Shown here one piece after another: positions 13,351 to 21,270 of a DNA stretch of 64,000 bases. A program made the translations under genes and the position numbers. The stretch comes from Rheinheimera riviphila. GTDB taxonomy: Bacteria > Pseudomonadota > Gammaproteobacteria > Enterobacterales > Alteromonadaceae. Location: contig NZ_SACS01000014.1 of assembly GCF_004005945.1 (NCBI RefSeq), forward strand, positions 62,001 through 126,000. The letters are read 5' to 3'. Each line of letters begins with the position of its first letter. Position 1 is the stretch's first letter. Under the pieces are notes generated by a model. That model did no database searches. It saw only the letters and a program-made list of their open reading frames with translations, and was not told the DNA's origin.

Positions 13351-13989
13351 ATGCGAAAATTAAAAACATTAAAAAAATCGTCCAGTGCATTGTTTTTATT
13401 AAGTTTACTGTTGTTACTCCCTGTGCAATGGGCTGTGGCGGCGACTGCCGATACGTGCAACGCTTGTCATGCCGCAGCTGTACGTAAGGCGAGTAAAGCG
13501 CCACAACTGGCCGGTCAGTCCGCTTCGTACCTTAAAAAGCAACTTTTGCAGTTTCAATTGGGCGAACGTGGGGCAGCTGCTAATGACATGACAGGGCAGC
13601 AAATGGCAGTGATGGCGAAAACGCTGACGGCGGCGGAGATTGAAACACTGGCGATTTTTTATAGTCAGCAAACGGCTGTCGCTGAACCCGTTACCGGATC
13701 CAATGCCAGTAACGATGCTGTGCAACTTGATCAAGGCCGTCGATTGTATATTGGTTCTTGCGGTGCTTGTCATGGTGCCAAAGCGGAAGGAAATCCTGCG
13801 TTAAATGCGCCGGTACTGCAGATGCTCGGCAAAGATTATCTGCAACTGCAGGTGCGGCATTTTCGTGATGGAGTGCGCGGCGTTAGCAAAACCGATAAAC
13901 CGGGACGGCAAATGGCACTGATGAGTCGTGAGCTTTCCGATGCCGATATTGAGGCCGTGGCAGCTTACATTGGAGCTGAATTACCATGA
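13351..13989 (+). CDS. Diheme cytochrome c (c4-like)
   Basis: This 212-residue exported protein has a signal peptide (residues ~1-31) and two c-type heme sites, CNACH at 36-40 and CGACH at 137-141. Each domain has a downstream Met as likely axial ligand (GQQMAVM, GRQMALM). The tandem layout, length and Q-L-x-x-Q-L helices match cytochrome c4-type periplasmic electron carriers. It overlaps the following peroxidase by 4 nt (ATGA), so it probably passes electrons to or from that enzyme. The start is the ATG at 13351; the ribosome site is weak. Confidence 0.88.
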   Translation: MRKLKTLKKSSSALFLLSLLLLLPVQWAVAATADTCNACHAAAVRKASKAPQLAGQSASYLKKQLLQFQLGERGAAANDMTGQQMAVMAKTLTAAEIETLAIFYSQQTAVAEPVTGSNASNDAVQLDQGRRLYIGSCGACHGAKAEGNPALNAPVLQMLGKDYLQLQVRHFRDGVRGVSKTDKPGRQMALMSRELSDADIEAVAAYIGAELP

Positions 13990-15353
13990 TGCTGACTTTG
14001 CTGTTGGCGCTGGCCACATCTGTTGTTGATGCGACGCCAATGACCCTGAATGCCAACTGTCCACCCAGTTTTGAGCGAACTGCGGCCAACACCTGTCAGC
14101 TGGTCACCCGTTATGATGCTTATGATTCGTTGCAAAACAAAGGCGTTGGCGGCACTCAAACTGCTTTGCCCAAAGCGCGGGATGGCTTTAGTCCGCAGCA
14201 AATTGATTTAGGCCGTTATCTGTTTTTTGATCCGTTGCTGTCCGGTAATCACCGGCAGGCTTGCGCCAGTTGCCATCAGCCAGCACAAGGTTTTGCCGAT
14301 GGTAAAGCTTTGAGTACCGGCACTCATGGCGATATCGGAACCCGCAGCGCACCTGGTTTATGGAATGTTGCTTTTCAAAAAAAACTATTCTGGGATGCCC
14401 GCGCCGATTCGCTGGAGCAACAAGCGCTTATTCCATTATTTGCCCCGCATGAAATGGCTAATACCGCCGAGCAGTTATTGGCTGATTTAGCGGCGAGTCG
14501 TGAATATCCGGCGTTATTTGCGCAGGCTTTTCCGGAATCATCTCAGTTTGAGTTGTCGCAGGTCGCGTCGGCGCTGGCGGCGTTTCAAAGCTCGTTGATT
14601 TCACTCAATAGCCGGTATGACCAATATGCCCATGGTTATCACGAAGCGCTGAATGAGGAAGAAATCAAAGGTATGAATGTGTTTCGATCTTTTGTTGCGC
14701 GCTGTGCGGAATGCCATACGCCACCACTTTTTACCAATCAACAAATTGCGGTGATTGGCACGCCGGAGCCGGACGGTATGCCGTTTGATAGCGGTGCTGG
14801 CAATAGCAGCGATAAATCCAAGCTACGTGGTGCTTTTAAAGTACCAAGCCTGCGTAATGTCGCCCGCACCGCGCCTTATATGCATTCCGGCCGTTTCGCC
14901 ACTTTGGCAGAAGCGGCCGAGTTTTATACCAAAGGCCGTGGTCATGCGGTGGCCGATCAAAAACTGCTGTTGCACTGGCATATCTGGGAGCCAAAACTGA
15001 CCCCGGAAGAAATTGGGCAAATCAGCAAATTTCTACACAGCTTAACTGATGAAAGCCTGATGCCGGCGGTACCAAATAGGCTGCCTTCGGGGTTGCCGTT
15101 GCCTGCTGAATTACGGACACCCACTGCTGAATTACGTGAATTACGGACACCCACAGATCTAAACACCAAAACAGTTAAATTGCGGACACCCATAGATCTA
15201 AACACTAATGCTGAATTACGGACACCCATAGATCTAAACACCAAAACCAAGGCTGAATCGCGGACACCCATAGATTTGAAATCCCAAATCAACACAGAAA
15301 ACAACTCAGAAAAAATAACAACACCATCCAACACCCAGGGGACCCAACCATGA
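13986..15353 (+). CDS. MauG/CcpA-type diheme peroxidase with REP-encoded tail
   Basis: This 455-residue periplasmic protein has a signal peptide and two heme sites, CASCH at 93-97 and CAECH at 240-244. Other family motifs are FFDPLLSGNHRQACASC, LWNVAFQKKLFWDARADSLE and SLRNVARTAPYMHSGRFATL. The family reduces H2O2 or performs oxidative protein or small-molecule chemistry. The enzyme proper ends near residue 370. About 80 extra residues follow, made of repeated (E/K)LRTPxDLNT units encoded by five REP-like sequences. The frame stays open and the TGA overlaps the next ATG, so coupling is kept. Homologues are usually near 350-400 residues without such a tail. Confidence 0.88.
   Translation: MMLTLLLALATSVVDATPMTLNANCPPSFERTAANTCQLVTRYDAYDSLQNKGVGGTQTALPKARDGFSPQQIDLGRYLFFDPLLSGNHRQACASCHQPAQGFADGKALSTGTHGDIGTRSAPGLWNVAFQKKLFWDARADSLEQQALIPLFAPHEMANTAEQLLADLAASREYPALFAQAFPESSQFELSQVASALAAFQSSLISLNSRYDQYAHGYHEALNEEEIKGMNVFRSFVARCAECHTPPLFTNQQIAVIGTPEPDGMPFDSGAGNSSDKSKLRGAFKVPSLRNVARTAPYMHSGRFATLAEAAEFYTKGRGHAVADQKLLLHWHIWEPKLTPEEIGQISKFLHSLTDESLMPAVPNRLPSGLPLPAELRTPTAELRELRTPTDLNTKTVKLRTPIDLNTNAELRTPIDLNTKTKAESRTPIDLKSQINTENNSEKITTPSNTQGTQP
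15108..15275 (+). repeat. Five REP-like units inside the peroxidase gene
   Basis: Units with the core AATTRCGGACACCCAY lie at about 15108, 15139, 15178, 15214 and 15256; the later ones extend into ATAGAT. They are the reverse complement of the GTGGGTGTCCGCAATT units next to the RAYT transposase gene at 21.09-21.20 kb. All five are read in one frame, giving LRTP/SRTP-type peptides. Confidence 0.8.
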
Positions 15354-16991: not shown

Positions 16992-17606
16992 ATGCATCCA
17001 TTACAGTGTCAATGTGGTTTGGTTCGCGCCGAGGTCGATTGTCGTGGCACACACAACCGGCTGATTTGTTATTGCACCGATTGTCAGGCGTTTGGCCGTT
17101 TTGTGACTGGTTTATGCGAACCGGCTGCGAACTCAGGCTCAGACCACCCGATACTGGATGCACAAGGCGGTACAGAACTTATCCAGGTAGCGCAATCAAA
17201 ACTCAGGTTCCTGCAAGGTGAAGACCAGCTGCTGGCAGTGCGGCTCAGTGAACAAGGCATGATCCGCTGGTACACCCGCTGTTGTCAGACGCCGATTGGT
17301 AATACGATGGCAAGTCGTGGTGGTGCTTTTATTGGCGTTATTCACAGTTGCCTTAATCGCCTGCAGCTCAACGCCGATTTTGGCGAGCAAGTGGCACAAC
17401 TCAATACCAACACCGCATTGGGTACACCAAAGCCACCGCAACATGGTTTATTCCGGGTGATCAGTAGCTTTTTGTGGTTGCTTATCTCTGAGCGGGTAAG
17501 TGGCAGGTATCTTCAATCCCCGTTATTTAACCCTGACGGTTCGCCAAGATCGGTACCGCTGGTGTTGAGTGCAGCTGAGCTTGCAGCATTGAAAACGCTA
17601 GGTTGA
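16992..17606 (+). CDS. DUF6151 family protein (GFA-like)
   Basis: This 204-residue protein fits DUF6151: an N-terminal CQCGLVRAEV, then CYCTDCQAF, and later WYTRCCQTPIGN, which is a GFA-like arrangement of zinc cysteines. The C-terminal half (FLWLLISERVSGRYLQSPLFNPDGSP) is characteristic of this family. Function is unknown, presumably a zinc protein related to the Gfa/CENP-V fold. The start is the ATG at 16992 with AAAGG about 9 nt upstream. Confidence 0.78.
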   Translation: MHPLQCQCGLVRAEVDCRGTHNRLICYCTDCQAFGRFVTGLCEPAANSGSDHPILDAQGGTELIQVAQSKLRFLQGEDQLLAVRLSEQGMIRWYTRCCQTPIGNTMASRGGAFIGVIHSCLNRLQLNADFGEQVAQLNTNTALGTPKPPQHGLFRVISSFLWLLISERVSGRYLQSPLFNPDGSPRSVPLVLSAAELAALKTLG

Positions 17607-18253: not shown

Positions 18254-18319
18254 GGAGAAAAAAGGACATCCGGAGAAAAAAGGACATCCACTAATTAGAG
18301 AACGGAGAAAAAAGGACAT
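18254..18319 (+). repeat. REP-like tandem units, left of the IS
   Basis: Three units start with GGAGAAAAAAGGACAT, at 18254, 18272 and 18304. The second continues as CCACTAATTAGAGAAC. The third is interrupted by the insertion sequence right after GGACAT; its continuation CCACTAATTAG is found at 19780, on the other side of the element. Confidence 0.8.
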
Positions 18320-18339
18320 ATATGGACGCTCCCATGCTT

Positions 18340-18666
18340 GTCAAGTAAACCAACCTGCCAGCAAGCGTTTGTTTGCTGGTTTTCTTTTATATACTCCCAA
18401 ACTGTTTTGCTGACGCTGCAGGCTTTACAGATAAAGTTCTGTCCTGACATATATTCGGGCTATCTTTTTACCGATGCCCCGCATGAGCTCTGGACCAAAA
18501 CGCCGTTAAAAATCATCCACTCGGGTTTATACCCTTGTCCTTAGCTGGCTTGGTTTTGGTGAGTTGCCTCTTGCCTCATCATTTTCAACAGATTGGTTAA
18601 AATGGCATGCCGCCTAAACATCCACTCGGGCTCAGGGCCCTTGTCCTAACCAGGCTGGCATGCCGG
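18340..18666 (-). ncRNA. Candidate bridge RNA / seekRNA of the IS
   Basis: This non-coding flank lies downstream of the transposase gene, where IS1111-type elements keep their guide RNA. Read on the plus strand for position, three loops share a CGGG...CCC(G) inner hairpin. Loops 2 (18514-18542) and 3 (18619-18649) each have CATCCACT on one side and TTGTCCT on the other. CATCCACT equals the right half of the target and TGTCCT is the complement of its left half. Loop 2 is closed by an 8-bp stem at 18494-18501/18553-18560, and loop 3 by one at 18604-18611/18657-18664. The inner hairpins differ by compensating changes (GGGT/ACCC versus GGGC/GCCC). Loop 1 (18448-18487) has CATATAT and ATGAG, which partly match the circle junction. 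The RNA itself is inferred. Confidence 0.65.
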
Positions 18667-19698
18667 TCAACACTTGGCGCATACAGCCTGAGCTGGCTGC
18701 GCTTGATATAAACTATTACGGCTTAATAACACCCACATCAGCCGGGCGAGCCGATGGGCAATCGCCACTACCACGCAATTCACATGCTTGCGACAACGTA
18801 AATTCGTGATCCACTGATTCAGTGCATCCGGTTTGTGCTCGGCGCGCCGCAGCAACGTCCGCGCCCCGTGAATGATTTGTTTACGCAGATAGCTATCCCC
18901 GCGTTTGCTGATCCCCTCCATCTTCGACCGGTTACCAGAAGCCGATTGCTTAGGCGTTAATCCTAACCAGACAGCGAAGTCCTTTGCGCTTTTAAAGGCT
19001 TGTGCTTTATCAACCGACGCAGCAACGGCTGAAGCGATAATAGGGCCAACGCCAGGTAGACTTAGTAAAATCTGCGCTGCTGAGCTTTCGCTAATAAAGT
19101 GCTTCAGCTGCGTTTCAATCTGTGCTTGCTGCTCACGTAAGTGTTTGTAATCATCTAAAGATTGTTGAATAACAAAACGCTTGGTGGCACTGAGTTCGGT
19201 ATCCAGTAGCAAAGTGAGACCTTCAAAAAATGCTTTATGGCCTTTATTGAACACCAAACCAAAATCCGTTAATAAACCGCGAGTTTGATTACTCAGTTCG
19301 ATGCGCTGCTTGGTGAGACGTTCACGAATATTGTGCAACATCAGAATTTCTTGCTGGTACTCAGTTTTAACCGGCACCGGGCGAATAAAAGGTCGCTGAC
19401 TCGCCTCAAAAATAGCCAGAGAATCATTGCGGTCATTTTTATTGCCACGCACAAATGGCGTGACATGCTGTGCCGGGATCAGTTGAACGTGATAACCCAG
19501 CTGCTGCAATTCACGACCCCAATAATGGGCGGAGTAACAAGCCTCCATGACAACTTTGCAAGGCGGATGGTTTTTAATAAATTGATGAAAAGCTGCACGA
19601 CTAAGCCTTCTTTCCTGCTGAACTTTGTGTTGTTCATCAAACATCATCAATTGAAAAACACTTTTTGCCAGATCGATAGAGATGGTGCTAATTTTCAT
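18667..19698 (-). CDS. IS110-family transposase
   Basis: This 343-residue DEDD recombinase has the RuvC-like residues Asp9 (SIDLAKS), Glu52 (VVMEACYSAHYW), Asp89 and Asp92 (NDRND). The C-terminal Tnp20 domain has LLSLPGVGPIIASAVAASV and the serine region KQSASGNRSKMEGISKRGDSYLRK. This family recombines donor and target with a guide RNA and a RuvC-like/serine composite active site. The frame is open to 19779, but the ATG at 19698 begins the normal MKIST N-terminus. The gene looks intact, so the element may be active. Confidence 0.93.
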   Translation of the reverse strand: MKISTISIDLAKSVFQLMMFDEQHKVQQERRLSRAAFHQFIKNHPPCKVVMEACYSAHYWGRELQQLGYHVQLIPAQHVTPFVRGNKNDRNDSLAIFEASQRPFIRPVPVKTEYQQEILMLHNIRERLTKQRIELSNQTRGLLTDFGLVFNKGHKAFFEGLTLLLDTELSATKRFVIQQSLDDYKHLREQQAQIETQLKHFISESSAAQILLSLPGVGPIIASAVAASVDKAQAFKSAKDFAVWLGLTPKQSASGNRSKMEGISKRGDSYLRKQIIHGARTLLRRAEHKPDALNQWITNLRCRKHVNCVVVAIAHRLARLMWVLLSRNSLYQAQPAQAVCAKC

Positions 19699-19779
19699 AT
19701 CGGACGCTCCTGTGTAACTGAATGTGTTCAACATCAGTTTGGCGCATTGACGCCGGATCGGGAGCGTCCATCTCATCAT

Positions 19780-19842
19780 CCACTAATTAGAGAAAAAAGG
19801 ACATCCACTAATTAGAGAAAAAAGGGCATCCACTAATTAGGC
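19780..19842 (+). repeat. REP-like tandem units, right of the IS
   Basis: CCACTAATTAG at 19780 completes the unit interrupted by the IS. It is followed by two more AGAAAAAAGG(A/G)CAT-CCACTAATTAG units. Reverse-complemented, the core is CTAATTAGTGGATGTCC, a relative of the AATTGGTGGGTGTCC units beyond the RAYT gene. Confidence 0.8.
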
Positions 19843-20045: not shown

Positions 20046-21017
20046 TCAGCCAAAACTGCGCTGACAGGCGGTTTGACCGTGAAGCCAGCGCAGACCAAGC
20101 TTTTGACAGAATTGTTTGAGCGAGCTGATAGAGCCAATGGCTTGGTGAAAAATGGTTTCAAGTTTTTTGCAATTCTGCAGCCAGCAATCCGCTGAAATCC
20201 CCAGACGAGCCAGGATGGGTGGTAAAGAACTGTCGATAGCACCGCGTTTGTCTTCCCGGATTTGGCGACCTGTCCAATCAACAAGTTCAATGTAATCAAT
20301 AAGGCTGTAAGGGATATTGTGCTGAGCGTTTTCTTGATGGCTATTCCCAGCAAATGGCAGCAGCTCGCCATGAAAAGCACAATGAATAGCTTTACCAAGC
20401 CGTTGCTGGATGCTGGTATAGTCAGAAGATTCTGGTGTCAAAGCCACCTGTGCGCGAATTGGATTTAAATCAACGTAAACCATACCGGTTAGCAGGGCTT
20501 TGACGTCCAGCAGCGCTTGTGATTTAAACCTGCCTTCCCAGAATCGACCGGTGCACTTGTCTTCAAAATTCGCGAGCCTGGCAATATGTTCATTCAAACA
20601 GCGCATAAACCAACTGATATCACAGAGTCTCGCCCGCCAGTTTTCAATCATGGTTTCAGTGACTTGGTTTTCGGCTTCACCGCTTGAGTCACCACTGAGA
20701 TACCGTTCAACCAGTACAGGTAAACGGAACAGCATCTGCCAGCGCTCAGTGATATCTTTTGCGCTCCAGGCTGCAGCTTTTGCCGCATCTACCCGCACTA
20801 CCAAGTGGTAATGATTGGACATGAGAGCAAAAGCAGCGATATCGATGGCAAACATTTGGGTCAGCAGTTTCAGGCGCTCCAGAATCCAGTCACGGCGATG
20901 TTCAAAGTTATAAGTTTCTGTAATACCACACAAAAATGCCCGCCGTACGCAGCGGCTGACTAAGTGGTAATAAGGTGTTTCGGTCACACTGATTTGTTGC
21001 TTGCGTGGTTTTGGCAT
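20046..21017 (-). CDS. REP-associated tyrosine transposase (RAYT, Y1/IS200-like)
   Basis: This 323-residue protein is of the Y1_Tnp type found as single-copy RAYTs. It has PYYHLVSRCVRRAFLCG near the N-terminus and the HUH metal motif HYH at 69-71 in LMSNHYHLVV. FWEGRFKSQALLD and MVYVDLNPIRA, which carry the candidate catalytic Tyr, are also present. RAYTs bind and nick single-stranded REP hairpins and are thought to spread REP sequences. No IS200/IS605 ends are visible; instead REP units of two related types flank the gene, GTGGATGTCC units downstream and GTGGGTGTCC units upstream. The ATG is at 21017. Confidence 0.87.
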   Translation of the reverse strand: MPKPRKQQISVTETPYYHLVSRCVRRAFLCGITETYNFEHRRDWILERLKLLTQMFAIDIAAFALMSNHYHLVVRVDAAKAAAWSAKDITERWQMLFRLPVLVERYLSGDSSGEAENQVTETMIENWRARLCDISWFMRCLNEHIARLANFEDKCTGRFWEGRFKSQALLDVKALLTGMVYVDLNPIRAQVALTPESSDYTSIQQRLGKAIHCAFHGELLPFAGNSHQENAQHNIPYSLIDYIELVDWTGRQIREDKRGAIDSSLPPILARLGISADCWLQNCKKLETIFHQAIGSISSLKQFCQKLGLRWLHGQTACQRSFG

Positions 21018-21091
21018 GATGTCATCCTGACAGTTGAAAATCGATAGGCTTTAAATTTGGTTGCAAATAAGTTAATGTCAAGTTTTTATAG

Positions 21092-21204
21092 AATTGGTGG
21101 GTGTCCGCAATGGTGCTGCAATTGGCTTGTCAATTGCCTGGCACATTATAGAATAGGTGGGTGTCCGCAATTGGCTAGGCTCGAATTGGTGGGTGTCCGC
21201 AATT
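21092..21204 (+). repeat. Three REP units upstream of the RAYT gene
   Basis: Units of the form (A)AT(T/A)GGTGGGTGTCCGCAAT lie at 21092, 21152 and 21184, each bounded by AATT/TATAGAAT-type sequence. The reverse complement, AATTGCGGACACCCA, is the same core as the five units in the peroxidase gene at 15.1-15.3 kb. Confidence 0.8.
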
Positions 21205-21270
21205 GGCTCAATTGGCTCGATAAAGGTTTAGATGCACTTATCTACTGAAACAAAACACGAGCCAATGTTC

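Follow-up and report, generated by a model that had tools for sequence, protein, structure and literature searches.

How does an insertion sequence come to lie exactly between the two halves of a short repeat, when the non-coding DNA behind its transposase gene carries matches to both of these halves? An element in the window, that is, the whole stretch of 64,000 nucleotides that was analysed, raises this question, and a preliminary description of the same DNA answered it with a guide RNA of the bridge RNA or seekRNA type. We consider it very probable that the element, an insertion sequence of the IS1111 type, is directed to its landing site by an RNA from its 3' non-coding region, and that the target loop of this RNA is doubled in the clade to which the element belongs. 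The body of the element consists of the following parts.

18319..19778, minus strand: whole IS1111-type element, 1,460 bp, with a 12-bp subterminal inverted repeat and extensions of 7 bp at the left end and 3 bp at the right end
19760..19771, minus strand: left-end subterminal inverted repeat ATGGACGCTCCC, with TGATGAG before it
18667..19698, minus strand: DEDD recombinase gene, 343 amino acids counted from MKIS, a start chosen from the alignment
18339..18344, minus strand: TTGACA box, 18 bases ahead of TATGAT across the joined ends, a candidate circle-junction promoter by consensus match
18322..18333, minus strand: right-end subterminal inverted repeat GGGAGCGTCCAT, followed by ATA

The right extension of IS1111 elements is one of 3 bp. 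The subterminal repeats of the window element are perfect over their 12 bp and, together with the 7-bp and 3-bp extensions, fix its limits at 18319-19778. Its recombinase matches both DEDD_Tnp_IS110 and Transposase_20 in Pfam, as a RuvC-like DEDD recombinase of the IS1111 group should, as well as NF033542 in NCBIfam (E 5e-90); the invariant residues are D12, E55, D92, D95 and S257 in the numbering of alignment A1. A long non-coding region (18319-18666) lies 3' of the gene. Subterminal repeats with terminal extensions (7 bp at the left end) and a long 3' non-coding region are also what the accessible portions of PMC11187229 describe for the IS1111-group seekRNA elements ISEc11, ISPa11 and ISKpn4. 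These portions further report that the top-strand match lies 5' of the bottom-strand match, that no target bases are duplicated and that a promoter arises at the joined ends; all three features recur here, the last one as sequence only. TTGACA-18-TATGAT is as expected from that published junction promoter, and a box resembling TTGACA is present in 31 of the 39 elements scanned. Nothing in Rfam matched the window at the gathering thresholds. Elsewhere in the window, a plus-strand gene at 13986-15353 encodes a protein with CxxCH motifs, the C-terminal tail of which is built of repeated RTPIDLNTK-like units; judged by eye, the motifs presumably resemble those of a di-haem peroxidase. A DUF6151 protein (Pfam E 5.3e-20) is encoded at 16992-17606, plus strand.

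The insertion target of the window element reads AGTGGA|TGTCCT. In the orientation of the window, its flanks are AAAAAAGGACA (ending at 18318) and TCCACTAATTAG (from 19779), and repeat units are found on both sides.

18271..18318, no strand assigned: target-repeat flank on the window-left side, holding one intact unit
19779..19840, no strand assigned: target-repeat flank on the window-right side, a half unit plus one intact unit and one variant unit (GGGCATCC)

When joined, the flanks repeat, letter for letter, the intact unit at 18271 over 32 bases and that at 19790 over 28 bases. Because the joined flanks equal the intact neighbouring units, no bases were duplicated on insertion, which is the habit of the IS1111 group. 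No orthologous empty site was found for the window element, and within the genus, 7 of 22 genomes match the DNA of its flanks.

The window genome carries a second copy (G000:C17), with 99% protein identity and likewise 1,460 bp long; it lies at AAAAAAGGACA/TCCACTTTTTAG (GGACA/TCCACT), while the DNA further out is unlike that around the window copy. The search for other genomic copies suggested in the preliminary description thus gives one that uses the same motif. At this second site, the motif is solitary and without a repeat array; no empty site for it was recovered among repeated flanks of the same genome, where the shared flank begins about 30 bases off the junction.

The element had also been thought to home to REP sequences, and this claim is weaker than first stated. 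The draft genome (114 contigs) has three occurrences of the strict motif AGTGGATGYCCTT, each adjoining the window copy, and this motif is not dispersed through that genome as a REP would be; the second copy, as noted above, uses a solitary motif. On the favourable side, a minus-strand gene adjoining the target repeat array (20046-21017) is a weak match to REP-associated tyrosine transposases (NF047646, E 3.4e-7; Y1_Tnp, E 0.0026; both below the cut-off), and a relative, that of genome G058, uses a repeated motif. Site-specific insertion in short extragenic repeats is shared with the REP-targeting elements ISPa11, ISPpu9 and ISPpu10, as far as the available text of PMC1525189 goes, and the target of ISPa11 is given as a REP in the available text of PMC11187229. 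Unlike the targets of these elements, the strict motif of the window genome forms a small local array. Beyond the weakly REP-transposase-like gene, three plus-strand copies of the repeat GGTGGGTGTCCGCAAT were noticed by eye at 21090-21210, and GTGGGTGTCC comes close to the targets seen in many relatives.

The 3' non-coding region of the window element holds three hairpins.

18604..18664, minus strand: target-binding loop 1 (TBL1), the extra, upstream loop, with guides TTAGGACA and AGTGGATG; covaries in relatives
18494..18560, minus strand: target-binding loop 2 (TBL2), in the canonical place adjoining the donor loop, with guides TAAGGACA and AGTGGATG; covaries in relatives
18446..18488, minus strand: donor-binding loop (DBL), GCTCATGC ... 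AATATATG plus the handshake bases TC

All three share one grammar, namely a first guide, one linker base, an apical stem-loop, one linker base and a second guide. The stem-loop sides named in the preliminary description, CATCCACT (18514-18521 and 18619-18626) and TTGTCCT (18535-18541 and 18641-18647), are indeed the two sides of two minus-strand hairpins. The internal-loop strands of TBL1 and TBL2 match both sides of the target: the top strand of AGTGGA|TGTCCT could be paired by the first guides and its bottom strand by the second guides, with an overlap at TG. Judged from the letters, each loop therefore matches both strands of the element's own target with the top-strand match placed 5', which is the guide order of the IS1111 seekRNAs in the accessible part of PMC11187229. 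The CAT at which the guides were said to meet corresponds to the core region, and its extra bases come from the ends of the insertion sequence itself.

As in seekRNAs and bridge RNAs, the donor loop is complementary to the element ends. It fits the joined ends ATATA|TGATGAG except for two core bases of its first guide, which reads CTCATGC in both genomic copies where the ends call for CTCATCA; either that strand can do without these core bases or both copies have by now lost their activity. The departure from the known RNAs is in the number of loops. Seek- and bridge RNAs have one target and one donor loop per RNA, and the IS1111-group seekRNAs have one target-match pair each in the accessible text of PMC11187229, whereas the window element has two target hairpins. 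Their guides are near-identical, and TBL2 matches the target by one base more. Within the 418-base region, there are two occurrences of the guide pair AGGACA ... AGTGGATG, and it is found even once in 5 of 100,000 dinucleotide shuffles and 32 of 200,000 mononucleotide shuffles; since the pattern was picked after the sequence had been seen, the independent evidence is that of the second copy and the relatives.

A single-protein query over named genomes gave no relative. An alignment query gave 111, and 80 of these loci were used. Ends were parsed for 70 of the 80, leaving out 10 short or partial loci, and 18 of the 70 were dropped for unclear ends; with five elements added (two from the window genome, three from other genomes), 57 were classified by hairpin grammar, the targets being unused. 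Among these, 22 are double-loop elements (window copies included), 17 are single-loop elements (counting L134, in which the alignment indicates a damaged TBL1) and 18 are neither, nine yielding no donor loop in the parse and nine having a donor loop and no target loop at the expected place. Further double elements stand outside these counts (L099, L107, L109, L202 and L203 and, by eye in the alignment, L096, L102, L104 and L173). Two target loops are found in the window element and in relatives sharing about 50% protein identity or more. A plasmid search gave at least 5,000 matches, all below 60% identity among the matches listed. In the double elements, TBL2 starts 52-69 nt ahead of the donor-loop stem and TBL1 161-199 nt ahead of it; the loop of the single elements starts 52-61 nt ahead (52-58 leaving out L134). 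TBL1 is the extra loop, because single-loop relatives keep their loop at the place of TBL2.

In the folds, outer and apical stems form separately in each target loop, with some variation, and the fold and covariance comparison suggested in the preliminary description shows that both covary in relatives, although two of the measures are weak. Over 18 rows, 93.2% of 265 cells are paired in TBL2, with 52 double-change cells versus 14.7 in shuffles, and at most 43% are paired when the partner is slid; the TBL1 values, also over 18 rows, are 92.8% of 180 cells, 31 versus 11.3, and at most 46%. Pairs changed on both sides are a weak measure, the observed value being reached in 43 of 500 shuffles for TBL2 and 72 of 500 for TBL1, and pair types are not in excess in TBL1 (492 of 500 shuffles). 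The mean z of the folding energy is -3.3 for TBL1, -2.5 for the single loops and -1.1 for TBL2 (-0.5 for TBL2 of the window), the TBL2 value being scarcely beyond that of shuffled sequence.

In a quick tree, a branch with a support of 69 separates the double-loop clade from the other rows, and two clades within it, of 13 and 10 rows, have supports of 97 and 98; the double label of this tree takes in L096, L099, L102, L109, L112 and L117, which are not double by the automatic parse, and the tree does not contain L134. A single origin of the doubling is possible. Two members of the tree's double group are without two intact loops: L112 (Grimontia) has no recognisable TBL1, and in L117 (3508-3803) a deletion fuses the first half of TBL1 to the second half of TBL2, leaving one chimeric loop. 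The damage in L134 is the loss of the first guide of TBL1.

The guides of the relatives were compared with their targets over 12 positions, excluding the TG core that had been used in detection. The 17 single-loop elements score 9.5 on their own targets versus 6.6 when permuted, a value that none of 20,000 permutations equalled. In the set of 19 distinct double-loop elements (that of the window included, three near-identical copies removed, the close kin L108 and L169 both retained), TBL1 scores 9.3 versus 7.6 permuted (0 of 20,000 as good) and TBL2 7.6 versus 7.1 (822 of 20,000); the permutations, like the shuffles above, ignore the relatedness of the elements, and so, these counts are not exact probabilities. 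Divided by guide, the left side of TBL2 is equalled in 204 of 20,000 permutations, and its right side does not track the targets of the 19 elements (7,314 of 20,000). The sharpest cases are L161 (AGTGAC|TGTCCTTT, 14 of 14 bases matched), L147 (TGGGGACT, 13 of 14), L098/L100 (TTTGGG) and L103 (GCC in the left half). TBL1 equals the target in 15-19 of the 19 elements at every position from -4 to +6, and TBL2 does so in 17, 18, 18 and 13 of them at -4, -3, -2 and -1 and in 12, 17, 12 and 7 at +3, +4, +5 and +6. Beyond +6, both loops match poorly (at +7, 4 of 19 for TBL1 and 7 of 19 for TBL2).

There are 85 positions at which the two loops of one element differ; TBL1 has the base of the target at 50 of them, TBL2 at 14 and neither loop at 21. 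By total score, TBL1 is better in 14 elements and TBL2 in three (L095, L172 and the window element), with ties in L106 and L113. The extra loop TBL1 is thus the one that mostly matches insertions, and TBL2, in the canonical place, stays folded and half-matched. The preliminary description was right to speak of stem-loops in the plural, but the doubling of the target loop escaped it, as did the differing guides in the two loops of relatives.

The handshake bases provide another line of evidence. In 48 rows, counting near-copies, the two bases that follow TG in the DBL are the same as the next two bases of the target at 92 of 96 positions (permuted mean 81.3 of 96, with none of 20,000 permutations as good). 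Where the target has GC, as in the four rows L116, L128 and the similar elements L106 and L167, the handshake is GC too, and L147, L097, L138 and L139 mismatch at one position each. In IS621, two donor-loop bases pair with the incoming target, according to the accessible text of PMC11208158, and the handshake matches support a reaction of the bridge type in these IS1111 elements.

Genome G058 offers many insertions. All 15 left ends terminate in TGG[GA] and all 15 right ends then read TGTC[CT][AT], and the genome has 109 TGGGTGTCYW sites versus 28 for the reversed control. These insertion sites do not discriminate between the two loops. Three element copies in this genome, L068-L070, stand in tandem 1,692 bases apart (G058:C1:984015-988919), and elsewhere two right ends are separated by 48 bases (G058:C1:3330887-3330957).

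The guide RNA proposed in the preliminary description is backed by the second copy, by the guide-target matching in relatives and by the IS1111 anatomy. For its transcription, its binding and the recombination reaction, we follow the work on ISEc11 and IS621. The element would circularise, and its joined ends would form a promoter driving a transcript of the recombinase gene and the RNA. One internal-loop strand of the target loop would pair with each DNA strand, on either side of the TG core of AGTGGA|TGTCCT; TBL1 would be the loop that does so, or, in the window element, TBL1 or TBL2. The donor loop would pair likewise with the joined element ends, its two extra handshake bases fitting the target, and the recombinase would then swap strands at TG, giving an insertion without duplicated bases.

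One could instead suppose that the guide-target matches are repeat debris or a selected coincidence, the target being chosen by the protein or by DNA structure. It is true that the target lies in a repeat array and that the first pattern was picked by eye, but guides track targets in two sets of relatives and the second copy has the motif without the array, and we find this explanation very hard to credit. What, then, is the second target loop for? We lean, tentatively, to TBL2 having been kept as a structural half of the RNA while its specificity relaxed, a scaffold or relic that was left when the upstream extra loop took over targeting, and that would form, together with the DBL, the fold bound by the recombinase. 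TBL2 sits where the single loop of relatives sits, and its right guide is uncorrelated with targets, yet its stems covary. This reading does not sit easily with the core-proximal bases of TBL2, which still equal the target in most of the 19 elements (the counts for -4 to -1 and for +4 given above), or with its left guide, which matches better than permutation would predict. A common GGG motif and shared ancestry could lie behind part of this core-proximal and left-side matching.

Close behind the scaffold reading, and possible, is a second address: TBL1 and TBL2 would both be used, each with its own target and with a shared donor loop, the two addresses being the same in the window element. 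TBL2 retains the loop grammar and the covariation, and its core-proximal bases are in step with TBL1, target and handshake in several elements (GAC in L161, GCC in L103, GGA in the window, TGGC in L106; TGGC is also common to both loops of L102), but the loops differ beside the core in L127/G325 (TGGG, TGGT) and G270 (TGGG, TGAG). L095 lies at a TBL2-like site, where the right side agrees at 7 of 8 bases versus 5 for TBL1; over all 19 elements, however, TBL1 is the better fit in the majority, as indicated above. The 13 complete copies of G058 fall into GTGG[GA]|TGTCC (seven) and ATGGG|TGTCT (five) with one exception, and these classes resemble the two guides of G058. They could equally reflect the repeat's own composition or wobble pairing, three of the seven GTGG[GA]|TGTCC copies are in tandem, and the +6 base of the guides is not favoured. 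Nor is the TBL2 consensus a dispersed repeat in 14 host genomes, where sites like it are rare (25 versus 9 for the reversed control), this consensus being distinct from each element's own TBL2. It would be more surprising if the two-target-loop RNA paired two repeat units and rearranged the DNA between them, besides moving the element, and we regard this as improbable. The two target loops do have a compatible core, programmed bridge systems excise and invert DNA (accessible text of PMC11208160), and the tandem run of three copies in G058 has repeated flanks, but homologous recombination also yields tandem copies.

The window element shares with the bridge recombinases of IS621 and ISCro4 (accessible portions of PMC11208160 and PMC11208158; PDB 8wt6, 9t56) a target and a donor loop, a dinucleotide core and handshake bases, as well as a DEDD plus serine recombinase (by a profile match that covers part of the protein, with E about 1e-11). 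In IS621 and ISCro4, as far as these portions go, the RNA is upstream of the gene and has one target and one donor loop, whereas the RNA region in the window is downstream and has two target loops. More than one guide unit is also a feature of the tandem guide arrays of TIGR-Tas (available text of PMC12045711), and there is a weak profile match to NF052498, below the cut-off; unlike TIGR-Tas, the system in the window is a transposon, with one donor and two target loops. The guide mechanism is the established one of seekRNAs and bridge RNAs, described in 2024 (available text of PMC11187229 and PMC11208160), and so, the arrangement of the guides is not new by itself. The new part is the doubled target loop. 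No description of two target loops in one element was found in the accessible text of the PubMed Central papers listed for seekRNA and bridge RNA, IS110/IS1111 and REP, a scope outside which figures, supplements, bioRxiv, subscription papers and ISfinder lie.

The RNA architecture reported here, which was not found described, belongs to a family that is already used for programmable recombination. It is also a case supplied by nature for testing whether a target loop has to adjoin the donor loop, since the loop that best matches the targets starts 161-199 nt upstream of the donor-loop stem, with a target-like loop between. The clade with two target loops and one donor loop may perhaps represent a natural two-address RNA, whose loops evolve separately and which sends the element to two kinds of site or joins two chromosomal repeats. 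If TBL2 is a second address, two targets would be carried on one RNA, and if TBL1 and TBL2 act jointly, repeats could be rearranged without the element moving.
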